Shown: positions 4,032 to 14,384, counted from the first letter of the stretch. The stretch is DNA of 35,532 bases from a virus (IMGVR_UViG_3300003690_000164:1-35532), one strand, 5' to 3'. Notes: a model not told the origin generated them from the letters alone. A program made the numbers and translations.

Positions 4032-7000
4032 ATGCCCATTACTGAAGTTGAACTTCCAGATGGTTCGCGTATTTCTGTTGATCATCCAAGGAATGCGACT
4101 GAATCAGATATTCTTAAATTTGTAAAGTCGCATTATGGGGATGCGTTACCAGAAGAAGTTGTACCTGATATTTCTTCTGCTGTGATTGAAGATACACCAA
4201 GACGAACTACGGGATCTGGTTTCCTCCAGGGATTATCTCGTGGGGTTGATGTTGTTCAGCGTGGGTATGGATCTGCCTTGGAAGGATTTGGGAAATTTAC
4301 AGGTTTGGAAGGGCTGGAAACGACAGGAGCAGAGATTGCTGAAGAACAAGAAAGACAGCTTGCCGAGAAAGCTCCATTCGCAACACGCAGGCAAGACGTA
4401 GAAGACATTCGTTCCGGCGCAAGATTTTTCACTGAAACATTAGGCGAGCAAGTTCCCAATCTAGCGACCACATTAGCTGGTGCTGGGGCTGGGGCGGCAA
4501 TAGGTTCAGCATTTCCTGTTATTGGGACAGCTATAGGAGGTATAGCTGGAGGTCTTGCCGTCAATATTCCTTTTTTCTATGGCTTGAATCGTGAAGCGCA
4601 GAAAGATGCAGTAGAAAAGGGTATTAAAACGGAAGTCAGCGAAGGGGCTGCATTTCTTGCTTCACTGCCGCAGGCTGCACTTGATTTAATTGCTGACAGA
4701 TTTCTTTTAGGGGTAGCTGGTAAAAGCGCATTGAGTGCTGAATACATTATCCGTACCGGCAATATTTTTACCCGAGGAGTTAAAGGTGCTGCCGCCGGTA
4801 CTGCTTTGGAGGTTCCAACAGAGGTTGGTCAGCAAATCATTGAAAGATTTCAGGCTAATGAAGATATCACAAGCGAAGAAGCATTAAATGAATATATAGA
4901 TGTTGCGGTCGCTGCTGGGATTCTTGGCGGAACTATAAGAGGTACTGCATCTATTGTTAAAGGAGATGTTCGCAAGCAGGATTTAATTGTTAATGATTGG
5001 GAGGCAAAAGAATTTCAGGAACAAGAGGGGCCAGATTGGGCTGACAGGCCAAGGGATGCTACAGATAAGGTTGTGACCGATCAAAAGGTAGAAGATGAAG
5101 CTGAGAAGACTGTTCCAGAAGTTGATGAAGCTGTTCCAGAAGTTGCAAAAAAAGATAGTGTATTTACAAGAATTAGAAAAGCTATTGAAGAAGGCAGGGT
5201 TAAAATACATGAATCAGAATGGACTAATGCGCCTAAATTGCCTGCCAATTTAGCAATAGATCCAACCTATAAAAATTATAATGTTAAGTTTGCTAACGAT
5301 GTAGATAAAGCATTATTTATCGTTAGCGATCCATCGATCACAGAAGAACAACGTAAAGAATATACTGCTTTTCTTAAAACCGTTTTTCCCAAAAGATCCG
5401 GTCAGGATTTTATAAGAATGGGGTTTGAATATAGAAAAACCCTTGATGGCTTATTGAGTGATGGCATAGTGGATTCTAATGGAGCTTTAGCACCTGATTC
5501 TTTTACTAAACGTGGTCATGCGGTGCTTGATCCAGATTTACCGGAGACTGTTGTTGAAACGATAACAACTCCGAATGAAGATTTAAGGGCAACTATTCTT
5601 GAAATTGCCCAAGATAAATACAGAGAAGATGTAGGCTCTGTTCAGGCTGCAAACAATGATCAGGGGGTAATTCCTCCAATGTTGACAAGAAAAGAAGCCG
5701 GACTTCCGTCAGGTAACTTTTTTAGCTTTGAGAATATCTACAATAAATTAGATAAGTTTATTTATCATATCCAGGATAGATTGGTTGGATTACTAAGAAT
5801 AGAAGAAGCTATCAATGAAAATAGAAAAAATACTATTTCTGAACTTAATGCGGATAGAAAAACAAAAGGTTTAGATCCTTTATCACCAGCAGAAATAAGA
5901 TCTTTGGATCTTGCTCCATTAACCGCAAAAGAATCTGCTTATAAAGGTGAAGAAAGAATGCCCGGAATCATCGGGTCTATGATTCGAGCTTTTGAAAAAA
6001 ATGAACTTACACCTCTATCCCTGAAAGTTAACAGGATCAAGAAGAAATTTTCTGATATTACGATGCCTGTCATAGAAGAATTTCTTGTCCTTCGCCACGC
6101 TATTGAAAGAAACAAGAAAGTCAGGCTTATTAGGCCAACTAATGAAGCGGGGGCTGGGGAAATACAATATGAAAATGGCGATAAACGACGATTGACTGAT
6201 AATTATGTAAAAGAAAGAATGGCATTGCTATACGATGTGAAATGGGATGAGAAAAATAATGTCTGGACTGGAGGGAACGAGAAAGCGAAATATTTACAGG
6301 ACATAGCCAAGGATGTTGATGCCATTGTTAAAAAATCAATGGATGTACGAGTGGAAAATGGTTTGTTAACCGATACAGAAGCAAAAACCATAAGCAACAC
6401 ATTCAAATATTATATTCCCTTAAAAGGTCATAAGACTTTTGAGGATGATTATTCTGGTGTTTTTAGAAGTTCTTCCGGTGAAGGTCAGGCATCCGGTTTT
6501 ACAGTTGTTGGAGAAGAAGGTAAAAGGATCAAAACAGGAAGAACCACTGAAGCTGATACCCCTCTGGGTACTATTATAGGAGATAGAGCTAATGCGATTC
6601 AGAGAGGAGTTAAAAATAAATCGTTTTCCGAGCGACTGTATAATTTAGCAAAGGAAAATCCCAATAATAATGCTTGGAAAATCTTCACTAATAAAGATGC
6701 TAAATACGAGAAGATGTTTTCGTCAATTTATACTTATGTCGGAAATGATCCACGATTTCAGGGAATGGAAATATCTAAAGATGAATATAAAGCTGTAGAA
6801 AATCCAGATGAATGGCTTCAGAAAATAAATACTAAACGACGCCAGATTAGAAAAGGAGAGGCAGAAAGACTGGAGTTAATCGGAGCAAAACTTGATGGCG
6901 AGCAAGTATATATAGAAATAGCAGATCGGAGGCTCAGAGCGACTTTATTAAATCTTGATGTAGATGAGATGGGCACTGTTGTACGAACTTTAGGCAGAGT

Positions 7001-8831
7001 CAACCGCTTTCTATCAATGGTAAATACAAGTCTTAATCCAGGATTTCTGGTTGGTAACTTTGCAAAAGATATCCAAACAGCCGCATGGAATGTTCTTGGC
7101 GAGCAAACAATGGTTGGCGGAAAGGCTGAAAAGAAAAAGCTCGTAAGAAAAATTCTTTTTAGTACACCTAAAGCGATTCTAACATTCTATAGAGGAATAA
7201 GAGGGGCTACGCGGTTTAACAGGCATACTAATAAATGGGAATCAAGACTTACAGAGAAACAACAGAAAGATTACAATGAATATATTAACTCTGGCACTAA
7301 AGCCGATTGGTTCCATTCGAGACCTCCAGAAGAACGATTGACAGATTTTAATACTTTAAGGTCAATGTCTGATGGAACTTTCAAGGGAACTACCAGGCAA
7401 AGAAGAGAAGCATTGTTGAATTTCATAGAAGATCTAAATGCTGCTGTGGAAAATGGTGTTCGATTTTCTGCTTTTATTCATGGGAGAGATGCGTTCATTA
7501 AAGGCGATAGTAAGCAATTAACTCAAGAAACGGGTAAAGATTTAACTGTTCCGCAAATTCAAGCGATAGAAAGTGAAGCTATTGCTCAAGCGTCAACTTT
7601 GTCAAAAAACTTAACAATCAACTTTAATCGTAAGGGCCAACAAGGCGCATTACTTAATAGTTTGTATCTTTTCTTTAATGCAAGTGTTCAGGGATCAGCT
7701 AATTTTGCCAGAGGATTTATTCCAGGGTTAGGTCCTGGTATATCTAAAGTAAAGTATGCGGCAGCATCAAGTATGATTGCATTGGCTTATTTGCTGTCTA
7801 AGTGGAATGAAGCGTCAAGCGATGAAGATGAGAACGGTAAAACATTTTATTCAAATATTCCCGATTACGAGAAAGAACGTAATTTTATTATGATGAAGAC
7901 GGTTTTAGATCCTAATGCTGATGGCAGTGAATATTGGAAATTTCCTTTGCCTTACGGTTACAATATATTTCATGTGACTGGAACGGTTATCGAGGAAATG
8001 GAATCAGGTAATCGAGACACTGGGGAAGCGACATCTTTGCTTGCGTCAACATTGCTTGGGTCATTTTCGCCAATTAGCATAGGAGGTTCTGCTGCCGGTC
8101 TTGCGACAGCAGCCGTCCCATCTGCCGCCCAACCTGTCGCGCAATTAGTGGCTAACCGTAATTTCTGGGGAACACCTATTTACCCTGAAAATTTCCCGGC
8201 AGGTGTTCAGTATCCAGCCAGCCAACTTGCTTTTAGAACCACGGGCGAAGGGTATAAAGTTATCACCGAATTTCTAAATGTTTTGGGAGGAGGCAATGAA
8301 AGTGAGCCTGGGTCTTTATTGGGTATCAGTACAGATATATCACCGGATGCTTTAGAGCATTTAGCTGAAGCTGTCCTTGGCGGGGCAGGGGCTACTGGCA
8401 CTAGAGGTTTAGGGGCATTTAATAATTGGACAAACAGAGAGGACATCAAGGTTAAGGACATACCTTTTAGAAGAAGGCTTGAAGGAGAAGTTGATAACTT
8501 TAAGAGCCAACAGAATTATTATGATCGCAAAGAAGATATTATAAGAAAGGTCAATCAATACGATGTTTTAATATCACAAGGTAAGCGCGCCGAAGCTCGA
8601 AAATACAGAGAAAAAAATATTTTATATTTTCGCATGGAGAATATATTAAAATTTTCCGAAAAAAGACTTAGCGAGGAAAATAAGAGAATCAAAAACTTAA
8701 GAAATAAAAGTATATTAAATCCGGCTAATGCTATTGCTTATCAGGATATGTCTCTCAATATAGAAGATAGAAAAGATGATATATACAATCGGTTTAATCT
8801 TCTTTTCGATGAAAAAGAAAAAAAGAGGTAG
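4032..8831 (+). CDS. Giant internal/ejection-type virion protein (LPD38-like)
   Basis: 1599 aa. The N-terminus (PITEVELPDGSRISVDHP, then ESDILKFVKSHYGD) is a short domain often found at the start of very large phage internal proteins. Residues ~145-185 form a Gly/Ala-rich hydrophobic stretch that could insert in a membrane. The region around 985-1280 (NRFLSMVNTSLNPGFLVGNF, then F-S-A-F-I-H-G-R-D, then LSKNLTINFNRKGQQG and YLFFNASVQGSANFARG) matches my memory of large polyvalent protein-associated domain 38 in phage ejection-type proteins. The C-terminus is a Lys/Glu-rich coiled coil. AAAGGA lies upstream of the ATG. A role in genome delivery is inferred from size and family. The gene is notably AT-rich compared with what follows. 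Confidence 0.75.
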   Translation: MPITEVELPDGSRISVDHPRNATESDILKFVKSHYGDALPEEVVPDISSAVIEDTPRRTTGSGFLQGLSRGVDVVQRGYGSALEGFGKFTGLEGLETTGAEIAEEQERQLAEKAPFATRRQDVEDIRSGARFFTETLGEQVPNLATTLAGAGAGAAIGSAFPVIGTAIGGIAGGLAVNIPFFYGLNREAQKDAVEKGIKTEVSEGAAFLASLPQAALDLIADRFLLGVAGKSALSAEYIIRTGNIFTRGVKGAAAGTALEVPTEVGQQIIERFQANEDITSEEALNEYIDVAVAAGILGGTIRGTASIVKGDVRKQDLIVNDWEAKEFQEQEGPDWADRPRDATDKVVTDQKVEDEAEKTVPEVDEAVPEVAKKDSVFTRIRKAIEEGRVKIHESEWTNAPKLPANLAIDPTYKNYNVKFANDVDKALFIVSDPSITEEQRKEYTAFLKTVFPKRSGQDFIRMGFEYRKTLDGLLSDGIVDSNGALAPDSFTKRGHAVLDPDLPETVVETITTPNEDLRATILEIAQDKYREDVGSVQAANNDQGVIPPMLTRKEAGLPSGNFFSFENIYNKLDKFIYHIQDRLVGLLRIEEAINENRKNTISELNADRKTKGLDPLSPAEIRSLDLAPLTAKESAYKGEERMPGIIGSMIRAFEKNELTPLSLKVNRIKKKFSDITMPVIEEFLVLRHAIERNKKVRLIRPTNEAGAGEIQYENGDKRRLTDNYVKERMALLYDVKWDEKNNVWTGGNEKAKYLQDIAKDVDAIVKKSMDVRVENGLLTDTEAKTISNTFKYYIPLKGHKTFEDDYSGVFRSSSGEGQASGFTVVGEEGKRIKTGRTTEADTPLGTIIGDRANAIQRGVKNKSFSERLYNLAKENPNNNAWKIFTNKDAKYEKMFSSIYTYVGNDPRFQGMEISKDEYKAVENPDEWLQKINTKRRQIRKGEAERLELIGAKLDGEQVYIEIADRRLRATLLNLDVDEMGTVVRTLGRVNRFLSMVNTSLNPGFLVGNFAKDIQTAAWNVLGEQTMVGGKAEKKKLVRKILFSTPKAILTFYRGIRGATRFNRHTNKWESRLTEKQQKDYNEYINSGTKADWFHSRPPEERLTDFNTLRSMSDGTFKGTTRQRREALLNFIEDLNAAVENGVRFSAFIHGRDAFIKGDSKQLTQETGKDLTVPQIQAIESEAIAQASTLSKNLTINFNRKGQQGALLNSLYLFFNASVQGSANFARGFIPGLGPGISKVKYAAASSMIALAYLLSKWNEASSDEDENGKTFYSNIPDYEKERNFIMMKTVLDPNADGSEYWKFPLPYGYNIFHVTGTVIEEMESGNRDTGEATSLLASTLLGSFSPISIGGSAAGLATAAVPSAAQPVAQLVANRNFWGTPIYPENFPAGVQYPASQLAFRTTGEGYKVITEFLNVLGGGNESEPGSLLGISTDISPDALEHLAEAVLGGAGATGTRGLGAFNNWTNREDIKVKDIPFRRRLEGEVDNFKSQQNYYDRKEDIIRKVNQYDVLISQGKRAEARKYREKNILYFRMENILKFSEKRLSEENKRIKNLRNKSILNPANAIAYQDMSLNIEDRKDDIYNRFNLLFDEKEKKR

Positions 8832-9714: not shown

Positions 9715-10053
9715 ATGGGTGATCAATTCAGCGGTGACCTGTCACGCAATGAAGTGGAGATGGATCTCAGTAAGTTCCTTGAGATTATGAAGGACAACTC
9801 GGATCTCAAGGATAAGATTCGTGAATTGCAGATACATCTTGCCAAGACCATTGATGCGTGGCGTATCTTTCCTCGCGTGTTCGTCGGGGTATATATCTAT
9901 CTGCTGTACGCGGTGGTGATGTGGTTTATGACCATAGCAGAACCAAACTTGGAGCAAGCTGGTCTGGTGTCGGTTGTTGTGGGCGCTATGGCAGCAGTGT
10001 TTGGAATATATGCCGGGACATCTCAGACAAAAAATTTCAAGGGTGAGGGTTAG
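9715..10053 (+). CDS. Two-TM small membrane protein, holin-like
   Basis: 112 aa. The N-terminal ~45 residues are charged and helical (LSKFLEIMKDNSDLKDKIRELQ). Two hydrophobic segments follow (about 52-72, F-V-G-V-Y-I-Y-L-L-Y-A-V-V-M-W-F-M, and 82-100, GLVSVVVGAMAAVFGIYAG), separated by a short turn. I recall similar small two-TM proteins in marine phage genomes, sometimes labelled holin. No lysis activity can be read from the sequence. It stands first in a run of three membrane genes linked by one-base overlaps, and no endolysin is next to it. Confidence 0.65.
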   Translation: MGDQFSGDLSRNEVEMDLSKFLEIMKDNSDLKDKIRELQIHLAKTIDAWRIFPRVFVGVYIYLLYAVVMWFMTIAEPNLEQAGLVSVVVGAMAAVFGIYAGTSQTKNFKGEG

Positions 10054-10334
10054 TGAGCGAGGTTTTTACTCTGGTTGCCGATGTAGGCTTTCCCATAGCG
10101 ATGGCGTTGATCTGTGGGTTCTTTATTTTCCTCACGATCAAATATATTTTAGAGAGCGTTATCGGCCAAGTGAACGGTATTCACATAATCGTGCATGGTT
10201 TAGACAATCGCGTTAAGACGATGAATCACGACATCATTCGCTTGGACGCAACCATGTGTTCAGTACTAGGTATTCGCCCTGACCTGAACAGGATTGCAAG
10301 GGCTGATGGGAAGGAAGATGCGCGGCGTGACTAA
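10053..10334 (+). CDS. Single-TM small membrane protein (copy 1 of a pair)
   Basis: 93 aa from a GTG sharing one base with the upstream stop (TAGTG), with GGTGAGGG just ahead. One N-terminal membrane segment (V-G-F-P-I-A-M-A-L-I-C-G-F-F-I-F-L) is followed by a charged helical tail with HDIIRLDATMCSVLGI. The next gene has the same design and shared residues (GFPI, then DNDIIRLQQKLDTV), so the two look like a tandem duplication. They could be holin/antiholin-type partners or spanin-like accessories, but this is inference. Confidence 0.6.
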   Translation: MSEVFTLVADVGFPIAMALICGFFIFLTIKYILESVIGQVNGIHIIVHGLDNRVKTMNHDIIRLDATMCSVLGIRPDLNRIARADGKEDARRD

Positions 10335-10585
10335 TGGATATTGCATCAGCGATCAACGAATATGGGTTTCCCATCGTCATGGCGGTGGGCCTGCTGTACA
10401 TGATTTACTTCATTTGGCAGTTCATCACCCATCAGATAAAAAAGAAACTGTCAGAGGCGAACACAACCCTAGTTGCCCTCATAGACAGGATTCGTATGCT
10501 TGATAATGACATCATAAGATTACAACAGAAATTGGACACGGTGATTGAACTGCGTGAGTTGAAAGAAAATGATGCGACTGATTAA
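10334..10585 (+). CDS. Single-TM small membrane protein (copy 2 of a pair)
   Basis: 83 aa. The ATG overlaps the previous stop by one base (TAATG). The N-terminal anchor is Y-G-F-P-I-V-M-A-V-G-L-L-Y-M-I-Y-F, then a basic stop-transfer (QIKKK) and a coiled-coil-like helix (TLVALIDRIRMLDNDIIRLQ). It is a diverged sister of the preceding gene. csgF starts 16 nt before its end, so the membrane genes and the curli-type genes are translated as one unit. That overlap is the main reason to treat the curli genes as part of the phage and not as an assembly join. Confidence 0.6.
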   Translation: MDIASAINEYGFPIVMAVGLLYMIYFIWQFITHQIKKKLSEANTTLVALIDRIRMLDNDIIRLQQKLDTVIELRELKENDATD

Positions 10586-11033
10586 GCTGTTCTTTTTGCT
10601 ACCCGCAGTTTGCGCTGCTTCTGATCTGGTGCAAACATTTAAGAATCCCAGCTTCAGCGGCGTAGGGGCATCTGCTCACTATCTCACGATTGATGAACAA
10701 GAGCGCACCCGAAAAAAGGCGATTGCCGATGACATTGAAGCCAAGTTGAATGAAATAGAACGGGATGCTGATAACACGACGCTGGCTAAATTCCTACGCA
10801 ACATTGAAAGCCGGATTTTCTCGCAGTTGTCACGTGATCTGGTGGAGGCATTGTTTAACTCTGAAACGGGCGGCACAGGCGGTAGCTTTGATTTGGAGGG
10901 CAACATCATTCAGTTTATCAACACAGGCGATGAGATCATCCTGACCATCACCGACATAGACGGAGGCATAACCGAAATCAGGATTCCCGTAGGGACGTTC
11001 GGCATATGCTCAACAGACGATTGCGGTATTTAA
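10569..11033 (+). CDS. csgF: CsgF-like curli assembly protein
   Basis: 154 aa. A signal peptide (MMRLIKLFFLLPAVCAA) is followed by the CsgF hallmark near the mature N-terminus: QTFKNPSFSG, matching the family's FRNPNFGG. Further on are a helix F-L-R-N-I-E-S-R-I-F-S-Q-L and a C-terminal beta region GNIIQFINTGDEIILTITD then GITEIRIPV, which corresponds to the YIVDI...LNVTD...TSTIQV part of E. coli CsgF. In bacteria CsgF sits in the neck of the CsgG outer-membrane pore and helps place the nucleator subunit at the surface. Here csgG overlaps its 3' end by 28 nt, as expected for a pore-and-partner pair. Confidence 0.85.
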   Translation: MMRLIKLFFLLPAVCAASDLVQTFKNPSFSGVGASAHYLTIDEQERTRKKAIADDIEAKLNEIERDADNTTLAKFLRNIESRIFSQLSRDLVEALFNSETGGTGGSFDLEGNIIQFINTGDEIILTITDIDGGITEIRIPVGTFGICSTDDCGI

Positions 11034-11881
11034 TTATATGCGTTGCGATTACCTGCGTTGCCGGATGCGCTGCCATCGGGTCAGTTCGCGGGTGCAGGGA
11101 CACACGCTCTCAGATTGCCGGTGAGCGTGACTACGGCGGCATTGAATGTCCAGAGGGGCCAAGGATTGAACGCCCCTCGCTGAAGGCTCTGGTGGATTTA
11201 CCGCCGCCATCACGCAAGGCTGTTGTTGCCGTTTACTCGTTCCAAGACCTCACGGGACAGCGCAAGTCATCTGACAACATGGCGTTGTTCAGCACGGCTG
11301 TAACTCAAGGCGCAGATTCATTCTTGATTGATGCGCTTCAGAGTGCAGGCGGTGGAACATGGTTCACCGTCGCAGAACGCGGGCATCTGGATCACCTCAC
11401 GCGGGAACGCCAACTCATCATTTCCACGCGCAGCAGTTACGATGGCGAGGGTGACAACAGGTTGCGCCCGCTGCTGTTTGCGGGGCTGATCATGGAGGGT
11501 GGTGTTGTCGGCTTTTCAAGCAACCTTAGAACGGGAGGGTTAGGTGCCAGATGGCTTGGTATCGGGGTGAGCAACCAGTATAGAAGGGATGAAATCGTAA
11601 TTTCATTGCGGGCCGTGCTTGTTCAGAGCGGAGAAATTCTCCTAAATGTCATGACGAGCAAAACTATCTTCTCGGCAGCAAGCGGGATTGATCTGTTCCG
11701 ATTTACAGAGAACGGCACTGAGCTAGTTGAAGTTGAGTCCGGTGTCACCCGTAACGAAAGCTCTGGGTACGCTGTAAGGTCAGCGATTGAAGCTGCCGTT
11801 TATGCGATAATTATTCAGGGCATAGAAAAGGATGTCTGGGATTACCAAGCCCCAGAGGAGGAACCCAATGCGATGGATTAG
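11006..11881 (+). CDS. csgG: CsgG-like outer-membrane curli secretion channel
   Basis: 291 aa. A lipoprotein signal ends in the lipobox V-A-G-C with Cys21 as the lipidation site. The body shows the CsgG line in order: VAVYSFQDLTGQ, FSTAVTQGADSFLIDAL, FTVAERGHLDHLTRERQLI, AGLIMEGGVVGFSSNLRTGG, GARWLGIGVSNQYRRDEI, S-L-R-A-V-L-V-Q-S-G-E-I and NVMTSKTIFS. These match E. coli CsgG almost block for block. CsgG forms a nonameric outer-membrane pore that secretes unfolded curlin. An insert of about 20 residues with two Cys follows the lipobox. The curlin-like gene starts 14 nt before its stop. CsgE and CsgC are not found in the window. Confidence 0.92.
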   Translation: MLNRRLRYLIICVAITCVAGCAAIGSVRGCRDTRSQIAGERDYGGIECPEGPRIERPSLKALVDLPPPSRKAVVAVYSFQDLTGQRKSSDNMALFSTAVTQGADSFLIDALQSAGGGTWFTVAERGHLDHLTRERQLIISTRSSYDGEGDNRLRPLLFAGLIMEGGVVGFSSNLRTGGLGARWLGIGVSNQYRRDEIVISLRAVLVQSGEILLNVMTSKTIFSAASGIDLFRFTENGTELVEVESGVTRNESSGYAVRSAIEAAVYAIIIQGIEKDVWDYQAPEEEPNAMD

Positions 11882-12554
11882 CATTTTATTATGGGTGGTT
11901 GCGTCTACGGTTCATGGTGCAAATAACCTGATTTACGTGACACAGAGCGGAGGGTCATCAGCCCTGACGATGAATTTAACACAGACCGGAAATTCAAACG
12001 TCATTGGCACGAATAATGCGCGTGTATCCCTGACCGGAACGGGCATGACCGTGGACGTTGACCAGATCGGCGACAGCAATGTCATAGCTGCGACCGTGGC
12101 CCAATCTAACTCAACATCATTTACGCTGCGCAGTGTCGGAGATTCAAATACGCAAACGCTCGCGGTAGGAGCGACAGGCGATGCACAAGGCTCGGATTTT
12201 GATTTCGCCGCGGTTGGCGACTCCAACGTACTCGTTTATACCCAAGGGGCAGCAGCCACGGCAACAAGCGCAGATACTGACATCGTGATTGCCGGAACCA
12301 GCAACAACCTCAACATAGTCACAGAGGTGGTTGGTGGAACGAATAATATTGATATTGATGGGGACGGGAACGATTGGGACAGTACTCAGACGGGAAATGC
12401 AAATCATTCAATAACGGCTGAAATTTCTGGAAGTACCAACAACATTGATATTTCTCAGAGTAATTCTGGTGGCTCTACCAGCGGTATCGTTAGCCTGATT
12501 GCAACGACCAGTGGCGGCACGATTGACATAGACCAGTGTACAAGTGGCTGCTGA
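11868..12554 (+). CDS. Curlin-repeat (CsgA/CsgB-like) secreted amyloid subunit 1
   Basis: 228 aa from the ATG at 11868, chosen because GAGGAGGA lies just upstream and a signal peptide (MRWISILLWVVASTVHGA) follows. The mature protein is Asn/Thr/Ser-rich with repeated strand-turn units that carry Q-x-G-x-S-N or G-D-S-N turns (LTQTGNSNVIG, VDQIGDSNVIA, AAVGDSNVLVYTQG, TQTGNANHSI, ISQSNSGG). These are the spaced Gln/Asn/Gly positions of curlin repeats. It ends DIDQCTSGC. By analogy it is an exported, self-assembling fibre or nucleator subunit; whether it is A-like or B-like cannot be told. csgG overlaps its start and the FecR gene overlaps its end. Confidence 0.82.
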   Translation: MRWISILLWVVASTVHGANNLIYVTQSGGSSALTMNLTQTGNSNVIGTNNARVSLTGTGMTVDVDQIGDSNVIAATVAQSNSTSFTLRSVGDSNTQTLAVGATGDAQGSDFDFAAVGDSNVLVYTQGAAATATSADTDIVIAGTSNNLNIVTEVVGGTNNIDIDGDGNDWDSTQTGNANHSITAEISGSTNNIDISQSNSGGSTSGIVSLIATTSGGTIDIDQCTSGC

Positions 12555-13624
12555 TAGTTTTACCCCTTGTTGCCTACGGAGAAGTAGGCTCAATCACTGA
12601 ACTGCGTGGCATCGGCGAAGTCATTCGCCAAAACAACCCTGATTCTTTGACAGCCCAGCTTACGCTTGGCATTGCGAGCATGGATAACGTGCGCACCGGC
12701 AATGGACGCTTGGCAGTGCGGTTTCTGGATGACAGTGTTGTACGGCTGACGGAGCGTTCCAGCATTATCATTGACGAATACATATTTGACCCAGACCCTG
12801 CAAAAAGCAAACTCGCACTAAAAATGGCGAGCGGCACGGCGCGATTCCTAACCGGCGCACTGGGCAGAATCAGAAAAGAGAACGTCACTATAACGACCTT
12901 AACGGCAACCGTGGCAATTCGCGGCACCGATTTTACGGTAACTGTTTCAGAGATTGGCGAGACACTGGTCATTCTTTTGCCATCTGCACTGGGCGATGGC
13001 AGCGCAAGCGGCGAGATTACCGTCACTTCAATGGCCGGAGTGGTTGTGCTTGACGAGCCATTTCAAGCAACGATGGTTAGCGTTTCAGAGACCCCCCCCA
13101 CGCCCCCAGTGGTTCTGTCAAACATGACCTTGGCGTTCATAGATAATCTGCTGATCGTCAACCCGCCAAATGAAATACAGGAAGCGATAGAGGAGCAATC
13201 GGCAACATCTACGAATGTGCTGGACGTGGATTTTCTTGAGGAAACAGAACTGGATGAATCTGAATTGGATGAGGATGAACTGGGAGATGAGATCGGGCGG
13301 CTGGATATTGACCTGCTGGCGGTGGATTTTTTAACGGACATTTTGGATGCGGTTTCAGTCGCTGCCAAGGGAAAGCAGCAAGTTGCTGAACTGGATGGCG
13401 TCAAGATTGAAGGGTTGCTTCCGGGATTTGACCCCGTTGCACAGACGTATGTGCTAGTGGAGGGGGAGGTGCTGACCATTTTCCGAAGCGTTGAGAACAC
13501 CGTTGACTTGGAGCTTGATAAAAGCGGCGCATACAACATCAGCATCCTCACGGCTGGCAGGCAGATTGAGGCAACGGTCAACGGAGGAGGCGGTAATGCG
13601 ATTACTATTGTTCAGTCTAATTAG
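12536..13624 (+). CDS. FecR-domain periplasmic protein
   Basis: 362 aa from a GTG start 19 nt before the end of the curlin gene. A signal peptide (MYKWLLIVLPLVAYG) is followed by a FecR domain at about residues 17-145: EVGSITELRGIGEVIRQN, LGIASMDNVRTGNGRLAVRF, DDSVVRLTERSSIIIDEYIF, SGTARFLTGALGRI and TATVAIRGTDFTVTV. There is no N-terminal cytoplasmic sigma-regulator part, so it is the free-standing type. The C-terminal half has a very acidic stretch (LEETELDESELDEDELGDE) and a beta region. Such FecR proteins are often found beside CHASE2-type cyclases, as here. A sensing or scaffold role is inference. Confidence 0.8.
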   Translation: MYKWLLIVLPLVAYGEVGSITELRGIGEVIRQNNPDSLTAQLTLGIASMDNVRTGNGRLAVRFLDDSVVRLTERSSIIIDEYIFDPDPAKSKLALKMASGTARFLTGALGRIRKENVTITTLTATVAIRGTDFTVTVSEIGETLVILLPSALGDGSASGEITVTSMAGVVVLDEPFQATMVSVSETPPTPPVVLSNMTLAFIDNLLIVNPPNEIQEAIEEQSATSTNVLDVDFLEETELDESELDEDELGDEIGRLDIDLLAVDFLTDILDAVSVAAKGKQQVAELDGVKIEGLLPGFDPVAQTYVLVEGEVLTIFRSVENTVDLELDKSGAYNISILTAGRQIEATVNGGGGNAITIVQSN

Positions 13625-14384
13625 TGTATCCGTTTGCTGGGCCGGGAATAACTCGGTGGAAGTCCAGACAAAGGGAACAGGCACAGCCATATATATTGAT
13701 CAGATTGGGTCTACGAATACAGCGCGTGTCTGGTGCGGCCTGTCCGGCGGCACTTACGACACGCACACCTGTAGTTCTGCCGTGATTGACATTGACCAGA
13801 CAGGCACCGGCAATCTGGCAAAAGCGTATTCTCAGTACACTAATCACACCGGCAATGAATACACGATCACCCAGGAGGGCGACAATTCCACCGGGTACAT
13901 TGATGCCGACGAAGATGATAATGAGATGACCGTAACCCAAACAGGCGATAACTTTTATGCGGAAATCTACATGAGCGGTGACGATAACGTGTATGAAATA
14001 ACCCAAACAGGCGATTCGCATTATGCGAAATTCTATGCCTTTGGGGATGACTCTAGCTGGACGGTCACGCAATCGGGAACGGGTGGTGCGCATAATGCTT
14101 ACATCAAGTCCTGCGGAAATTGTAATCATAACGATGCCACGATCACGCAGTCCGGTAGTGGAGCCAAAAACGGCGACATAGAATTCAGGAATAATCCTGC
14201 TGACAATTCAACGGTCAACCTGACGCAATCAGGGGATGGTGCTCATGTGGGTAACATTCTGGTCAAGCAAGGAAATTACACGGTGAACGCCACCCAGACC
14301 GGGACAATCGTCAAGGGCTATACAGTAACCCTGGACTGTACCTCATCCTGTGACAAGACGGTCACAGTTAATCAATATGATTGA
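13596..14384 (+). CDS. Curlin-repeat secreted amyloid subunit 2
   Basis: 262 aa from the ATG at 13596, selected for GGAGGAGG upstream and an immediate signal peptide (MRLLLFSLISVSVCWAGNN). At least eight repeats carry the pattern T/D-Q-x-G-x-x-N/H-x-A/Y (YIDQIGSTNTA, DIDQTGTGNLAKAYSQ, TITQEGDNSTGYID, TVTQTGDNFYAEIY, EITQTGDSHYAKFY, TVTQSGTGGAHNAYI, TITQSGSGAKNGDI, NLTQSGDGAHVGNI). The spacing is more regular than in subunit 1, so this is the better candidate for the major fibre protein. Cys pairs occur in several turns. It starts 29 nt before the FecR gene ends. The many Asp residues would make the fibre acidic and perhaps calcium-binding (inference). Confidence 0.85.
   Translation: MRLLLFSLISVSVCWAGNNSVEVQTKGTGTAIYIDQIGSTNTARVWCGLSGGTYDTHTCSSAVIDIDQTGTGNLAKAYSQYTNHTGNEYTITQEGDNSTGYIDADEDDNEMTVTQTGDNFYAEIYMSGDDNVYEITQTGDSHYAKFYAFGDDSSWTVTQSGTGGAHNAYIKSCGNCNHNDATITQSGSGAKNGDIEFRNNPADNSTVNLTQSGDGAHVGNILVKQGNYTVNATQTGTIVKGYTVTLDCTSSCDKTVTVNQYD

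Follow-up and report, generated by a model that had tools for sequence, protein, structure and literature searches.

A phage-borne curli-type module that probably exports amyloid from the infected cell and appears to be exchanged between phages as a block

The viral fragment IMGVR_UViG_3300003690_000164:1-35532 (35.5 kb of phage DNA, analysed whole and referred to here as the window) carries on its plus strand, at 10569-14384, a single overlapping operon composed of csgF, csgG, two curlin-type genes (cur1 and cur2) and a gene encoding a FecR-domain protein, flanked upstream by two small membrane genes (TMa and TMb, the transmembrane or TM pair) and downstream by a CHASE2-adenylate cyclase. Judging from the sequences, the phage carries here a type VIII (curli) module which probably makes the infected cell export amyloid, and phages appear to exchange its csgF-csgG-cur1-fecR-cur2 core as a unit.

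Composition and conservation of the operon

The core components of type VIII secretion are found in the window, namely a CsgG pore, a CsgF with an N-terminal pore-binding segment and curlin-repeat substrates. The phage CsgG profile matches the solved CsgG pore of Escherichia coli at 2e-64 and aligns along its length, and a lipobox-like motif is present in 82 of the 91 CsgG homologues. CsgF scores 55.7 bits against a Pfam cut-off of 25.8 and retains the N-terminal FxNPxF motif, FKNPSF in the window aligning with FRNPNF of the solved CsgF. In cur2, five curlin-repeat stretches were recognized by Pfam, and its likely start is the ATG at 13596, which precedes a signal peptide. For cur1 (11832-12554) no Pfam match was obtained, and a fold search returned no significant PDB match; the Q, G and N positions of its repeats are conserved across 49 homologues, its AlphaFold2 model is a regular ladder of short strands (predicted local distance difference test score, pLDDT, 86.9; predicted template modelling score, pTM, 0.79), and on these conserved positions and this model it is a predicted curlin-type substrate. 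Rows from GenBank records were left out of the structure-model alignments. A preliminary description of this DNA had placed csgF, csgG and two curlin-repeat genes in one overlapping operon of a tailed-phage genome and seen in them a pore-partner-substrate set, and this is borne out by Pfam for CsgF, CsgG and cur2, and by the homologues and the model for cur1. Its limits of 10569-14384 are correct for these genes, but the TM pair before them and the cyclase behind them are regular parts of the module too. The features are the following:

10569-11033, plus strand: CsgF, pore chaperone or partner (Pfam PF10614, E 7.6e-15)
11006-11881, plus strand: CsgG, outer-membrane lipoprotein pore (Pfam PF03783, E 3.1e-46)
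11832-12554, plus strand: cur1, predicted curlin-type fibre subunit with signal peptide (conserved Q/G/N repeat positions, AlphaFold2 strand ladder)
12536-13624, plus strand: FecR-domain exported protein, probable fibre anchor (Pfam PF04773, E 3.2e-10)
13596-14384 (ORF, open reading frame, 13491-14384), plus strand: cur2, curlin-repeat fibre subunit with signal peptide (Pfam PF07012, E 1.6e-16)
10569-14384, plus strand: apparently recombining five-gene block csgF-csgG-cur1-fecR-cur2 (DNA identity profile against the related contig G394)
14412-16196, plus strand: CHASE2-adenylate cyclase (Pfam PF05226 and PF00211, catalytic residues kept)
10053-10334, plus strand: TMa, 93-residue membrane protein (phrog_18771), the kind of gene published as a histidine kinase
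10334-10585, plus strand: TMb, 83-residue paralogue of TMa, in 58 of 70 loci
9715-10053, plus strand: two-helix membrane protein (phrog_10198, a family of unknown function, PHROG match 1.8e-23), holin-like by shape and position

Presence and order were assessed by a local hidden Markov model scan of about 100 fetched loci, the relatives compared being mostly metagenomic contigs, and presence was counted where enough sequence was available. Nearly all phage loci scanned display the order TMa-TMb-csgF-csgG-cur1-fecR-(cur2)-cyclase; none of 70 loci lacked csgF or TMa, and of 48 loci all had cur1 and fecR, 47 had the cyclase and 41 had cur2. The order csgF-csgG-curlin-FecR-cyclase, for which the preliminary description had proposed a search of viral contigs, is conserved in about 80 IMG/VR loci, and the window CsgG has relatives encoded on at least 586 IMG/VR stretches. 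Neighbouring genes overlap by a median of 19-32 nt at the TMb/csgF, csgF/csgG, csgG/cur1, cur1/fecR and fecR/cur2 joints (58-90 loci), the first of which upholds the earlier claim of a link by overlap to the small membrane genes upstream. A scan for promoters and terminators gave matches no more numerous than in shuffled sequences.

The cyclase matches the CHASE2 (5e-36) and class III cyclase (5e-19) families of Pfam, and has both metal Asp residues, the adenine-selecting Lys and Asp, and the transition-state Asn and Arg of class III enzymes. Over 62 cyclases, the metal Asp residues and the Arg are kept in all 62, the Lys in 60, the Asn in 61 and the second adenine-selecting Asp in 53. The ratios of nonsynonymous to synonymous substitution rates (dN/dS, pairwise NG86) have medians of 0.04-0.10 in all eight genes, curlins included. 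Due to this purifying selection and to the nearly invariant active site of the cyclase, the module is likely to have been maintained and is probably functional.

CsgE had been reported as absent, and neither the window nor three relatives gave a match to PF10627, with a positive E. coli control; no search was made for CsgD and CsgC. CsgE is an accessory periplasmic gate, which raises secretion and is dispensable (PMC7029224).

Exchange of a five-gene block

A close relative, contig G394 (60,023 bp), has a terL 90% identical to that of the window. Their DNA identity is 71-92% before a point at about 10.6 kb, drops to mostly 42-60% between this point and about 14.4 kb, and is 76-79% in the cyclase (the 26% and 49% end bins of this profile are alignment ends). 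G396 is a more distant phage (terL 84%), with which identity in the block is mostly 54-69%, and in the CsgG tree G394 (as L228) falls in another supported clade than the window. Because the window block is nearer to that of G396 than to that of G394 and the CsgG clades differ, csgF to cur2 appear to have been replaced as a unit, the breakpoints lying close to 10.55 and 14.4 kb; a faster rate inside the block does not explain its greater closeness to G396. Over 35 complete loci, the identities of the five block genes correlate with one another at rho 0.81-0.92, versus 0.43-0.64 for the block against the TM pair and 0.66-0.73 for the block against the cyclase (phylogeny ignored).

The cyclases of L004 (13470-15230) and L231 (from 5314) are 35-39% identical to that of the window, next to blocks that are 60-77% identical, and these values suggest at least two exchanged cyclase types. 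In L004 the block proteins are 60-77% identical to those of the window but the cyclase only 35%, and hence the cyclase seems to be exchanged separately.

The FecR-domain protein

By sequence and model, the FecR protein starts with a signal-peptide-like stretch, after which come the FecR domain, an acidic linker modelled at low confidence and a beta domain at the C-terminus. The C-terminal strand of 74 among 75 full-length homologues is curlin-like, with hydrophobic-x-hydrophobic-x-Q close to the end. An iron-signalling anti-sigma regulator is expected to have a cytoplasmic anti-sigma region and one transmembrane helix ahead of the FecR domain, but no such region is found there in sequence or model, the beta domain following directly on the signal-peptide-like start from about residue 16, and this identity was rejected. 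In a profile search of 398 proteobacterial genomes, many very long ORFs were among the best matches outside the curli operon, aligned over the first ~200 profile residues, and these proteobacterial ORFs with a FecR-type N-terminal part have 1,000-7,800 residues; four were inspected, three with RTX repeats and two in which Pfam recognizes a FecR domain close to the N-terminus. The best PDB sequence match of the FecR protein is 5ix9, labelled as an antifreeze protein and cell surface anchoring domain. In the N-terminal region of RTX adhesins (5ix9 and the proteobacterial ORFs), as in the phage protein, a FecR-like domain is located at the N-terminus of an exported surface protein; the phage protein differs in its length of 362 residues and in having no RTX or Ig repeats, FecR being the sole Pfam family matched. 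Since its identities co-vary with those of csgF, csgG, cur1 and cur2, fecR belongs with the export and fibre set, and its product is probably more similar to a surface or fibre anchor than to an iron regulator.

These observations bear on a suggestion made in PMC9599517 and PMC7029224, that an open CsgG pore serves for nutrient or cofactor uptake while FecR acts as an iron regulator. Its authors' proposal, the FecR family name and the missing periplasmic gate CsgE speak for it. Nevertheless, curlins and CsgF are unnecessary for uptake, yet universal in phage loci, and with no anti-sigma region before a FecR domain that co-varies with the fibre genes we find this explanation very improbable.

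The small membrane genes

Judged by eye, TMa and TMb have one hydrophobic stretch apiece. We take the small genes to be those published as a histidine kinase, equated by position and not by sequence comparison with the paper. No HisKA or HATPase domain was found in 10 members (~80-115 residues), with no kinase family among the Pfam matches to E 1, and a histidine kinase was rejected as their identity. The TM pair is missing from three near-complete relatives without the module (W01, W02 and G398), yet present with the module, and for this reason belongs to it. In addition, it was found nowhere in both Caulobacteraceae genomes which have csgF-csgG-curlins-FecR-cyclase, and gave a marginal match in one of 385 alphaproteobacterial genomes. 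Taken together, the pair is predicted to encode phage-specific and module-specific small membrane proteins. Weak holin and YvrJ scores might point to lysis genes, but they are outweighed by presence with the module and absence from module-free relatives.

In the phage group of the window the two-helix gene adjoins the module upstream, and its relatives have no holin Pfam match. The position of the module directly behind this holin-like gene, in the window and in several relatives, together with a phage lysozyme upstream in L008, is what would be expected if the CsgG/CsgF pore were a pinholin- or secretin-like device for lysis timing with no amyloid export, as put forward for Melnitz (PMC9004378). 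However, that proposal presumed no fibre genes, whereas conserved curlin genes do occur, and strong purifying selection acts on them; for a lysis device, fibres and a FecR protein would be superfluous, and the L004 module sits downstream of the portal gene. We consider lysis timing unlikely, and favour amyloid export.

Source phage and contig linkage

The window terL is 54-56% identical to those of HTVC023P-type pelagiphages and 59% to that of phage DSL-LC04, and the guanine-plus-cytosine (GC) content is ~49% in the window versus ~36% in 023Pt_psg01. On these data the source appears to be a relative of the HTVC023P type at ~49% GC, a value which makes SAR11 doubtful as its host.

The preliminary description had raised a possible chimera, with suspect junctions at 8.7-9.0 and 16.1-16.5 kb. 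This is refuted by related IMG/VR contigs that cross both junctions in the same order: in G394 the ejection genes are followed by g8841 (92% identical), the two-helix gene (86%), the TM pair, csgF through to the cyclase and minus-strand early genes, and in four more contigs (L213, L216, L217 and L219) the cyclase continues into the same early genes and primase as in the window. Near the first junction window and G394 differ greatly, with a low-GC 1,599-residue LPD38 gene versus one of 1,050 residues, a replacement which is ordinary phage mosaicism. The LPD38 polyvalent protein gene of the window (4032-8831) has ~37% GC amid surroundings of ~50-54%, and a pattern scan of IMG/VR found no relative of it.

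Relation to known systems

Modules of this kind have been described three times: csgF-csgG with hypothetical partners in pelagimyophages (2020, PMC7029224), a histidine kinase-csgF-csgG-csgA/B-FecR-csgA/B-adenylate cyclase order in HTVC023P-type phages, for which transcripts and a wide distribution across the oceans were described (2022, PMC9599517), and csgFG in phage Melnitz, with a proposed role in lysis (2022, PMC9004378). The full module order is found in the GenBank records of HTVC008M and Melnitz-3 (L002 and L003), and the published pelagiphage arrangement, small gene(s)-csgF-csgG-curlin-fecR-curlin-cyclase in a phage, is that of the window. Because this gene order was already published in pelagimyophages, HTVC023P-type podophages and Melnitz, a new kind of system is ruled out; new here are the block exchange, the reading of FecR as an anchor and the small-gene pair without a kinase domain.

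The HTVC023P-type module shares with the window one or two small genes, csgF, csgG, curlin, FecR, curlin and adenylate cyclase on a related backbone, and differs in GC content and in the roles given to the small genes and FecR. HTVC008M and Melnitz have the same order, with CsgG 46% and 42% identical to that of the window, but they are myoviruses with other genome surroundings and curlins only 25-31% identical. With E. coli curli the phage operon has in common the CsgG pore, the CsgF partner and curlin-repeat substrates, while it has no CsgE and adds the FecR-domain protein, the cyclase and the TM pair. Two Caulobacteraceae metagenome-assembled genomes (L090 and L091) have csgF-csgG-curlin-curlin-FecR-CHASE2 cyclase as a single chromosomal operon, but differ from the phages in having no TM pair genome-wide. 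Their CsgG nests inside the phage clade on a long branch, and both phage-to-bacterium transfer and a donor lineage are possible. As to a bacterial origin of the FecR and cyclase genes, five alphaproteobacterial curli loci, over the 15 kb read, had no match to the phage FecR and cyclase profiles.

Contigs with both the curli module and the TM pair are also binned in GTDB Pelagibacter, Flavobacteriaceae and Synechococcus genomes (L103 and L092-L095); since L103 also has a phage terminase and portal, these look like mis-binned phage contigs. A 1,499-bp 'Salmonella phage' record (OR851715.1) encodes a CsgG 40% identical to that of the window, and may be host DNA.

Discussion

The most probable explanation is that CsgG and CsgF build an outer-membrane pore, and that cur1 and cur2 reach the periplasm via their signal peptides, cross this pore and polymerise outside. 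The FecR-domain protein would be exported alongside the curlins and most likely anchor or cap the fibre at the cell surface, whereas the CHASE2 cyclase may make cyclic AMP on a periplasmic signal and the TM pair may be an inner-membrane accessory of the module. The amyloid would then probably change the surface of the infected cell.

Alternatively, the amyloid might do its work once the cell has lysed, binding together neighbouring cells, virions and debris (virion retention or sibling capture), rather than while the infected cell is alive. The module closes the late, structural strand next to the holin-like gene, and this position suggests late expression, in keeping with this possibility, but Sec-dependent export and pore assembly require a live, energised cell. 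Sibling capture was proposed in PMC7029224, and no clumping was seen in Melnitz cultures (PMC9004378). A post-lysis role is conceivable but seems a good deal less probable than export from the living cell.

The absence of clumping also weighs against amyloid export with a FecR anchor, as do some other points: CsgE is missing, the identity correlations take no account of phylogeny, the sequence match to 5ix9 is weak (E 0.01) and the structural one, though good, covers 63 columns, and anti-sigma FecR relatives match the same fold.

The roles offered in the preliminary description, namely exclusion of other phages, cell clumping, virion retention or envelope weakening at lysis, are hypotheses. 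As to the benefit, curli of E. coli interrupts phage binding at the single-cell scale and blocks phage diffusion (PMC9778933), and by analogy the most likely gain, though far from assured, would be that adsorption of competing phages is blocked; holding cells or virions together is a somewhat weaker candidate. Tentatively, phages may trade the five-gene amyloid cassette (pore, chaperone, two fibres and FecR-type anchor) as a self-consistent specificity block set between a conserved TM pair and a cyclase; the exclusion or capture of particular phages or cells would then depend on interchangeable amyloid coats of the infected cells.

Phage-coded amyloid secretion appears widespread among viral contigs, and two published roles need revision, FecR as an iron regulator and the small genes as a histidine kinase. 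If block exchange reflects specificity, the module would represent a surface-exclusion system evolving by cassette swapping.

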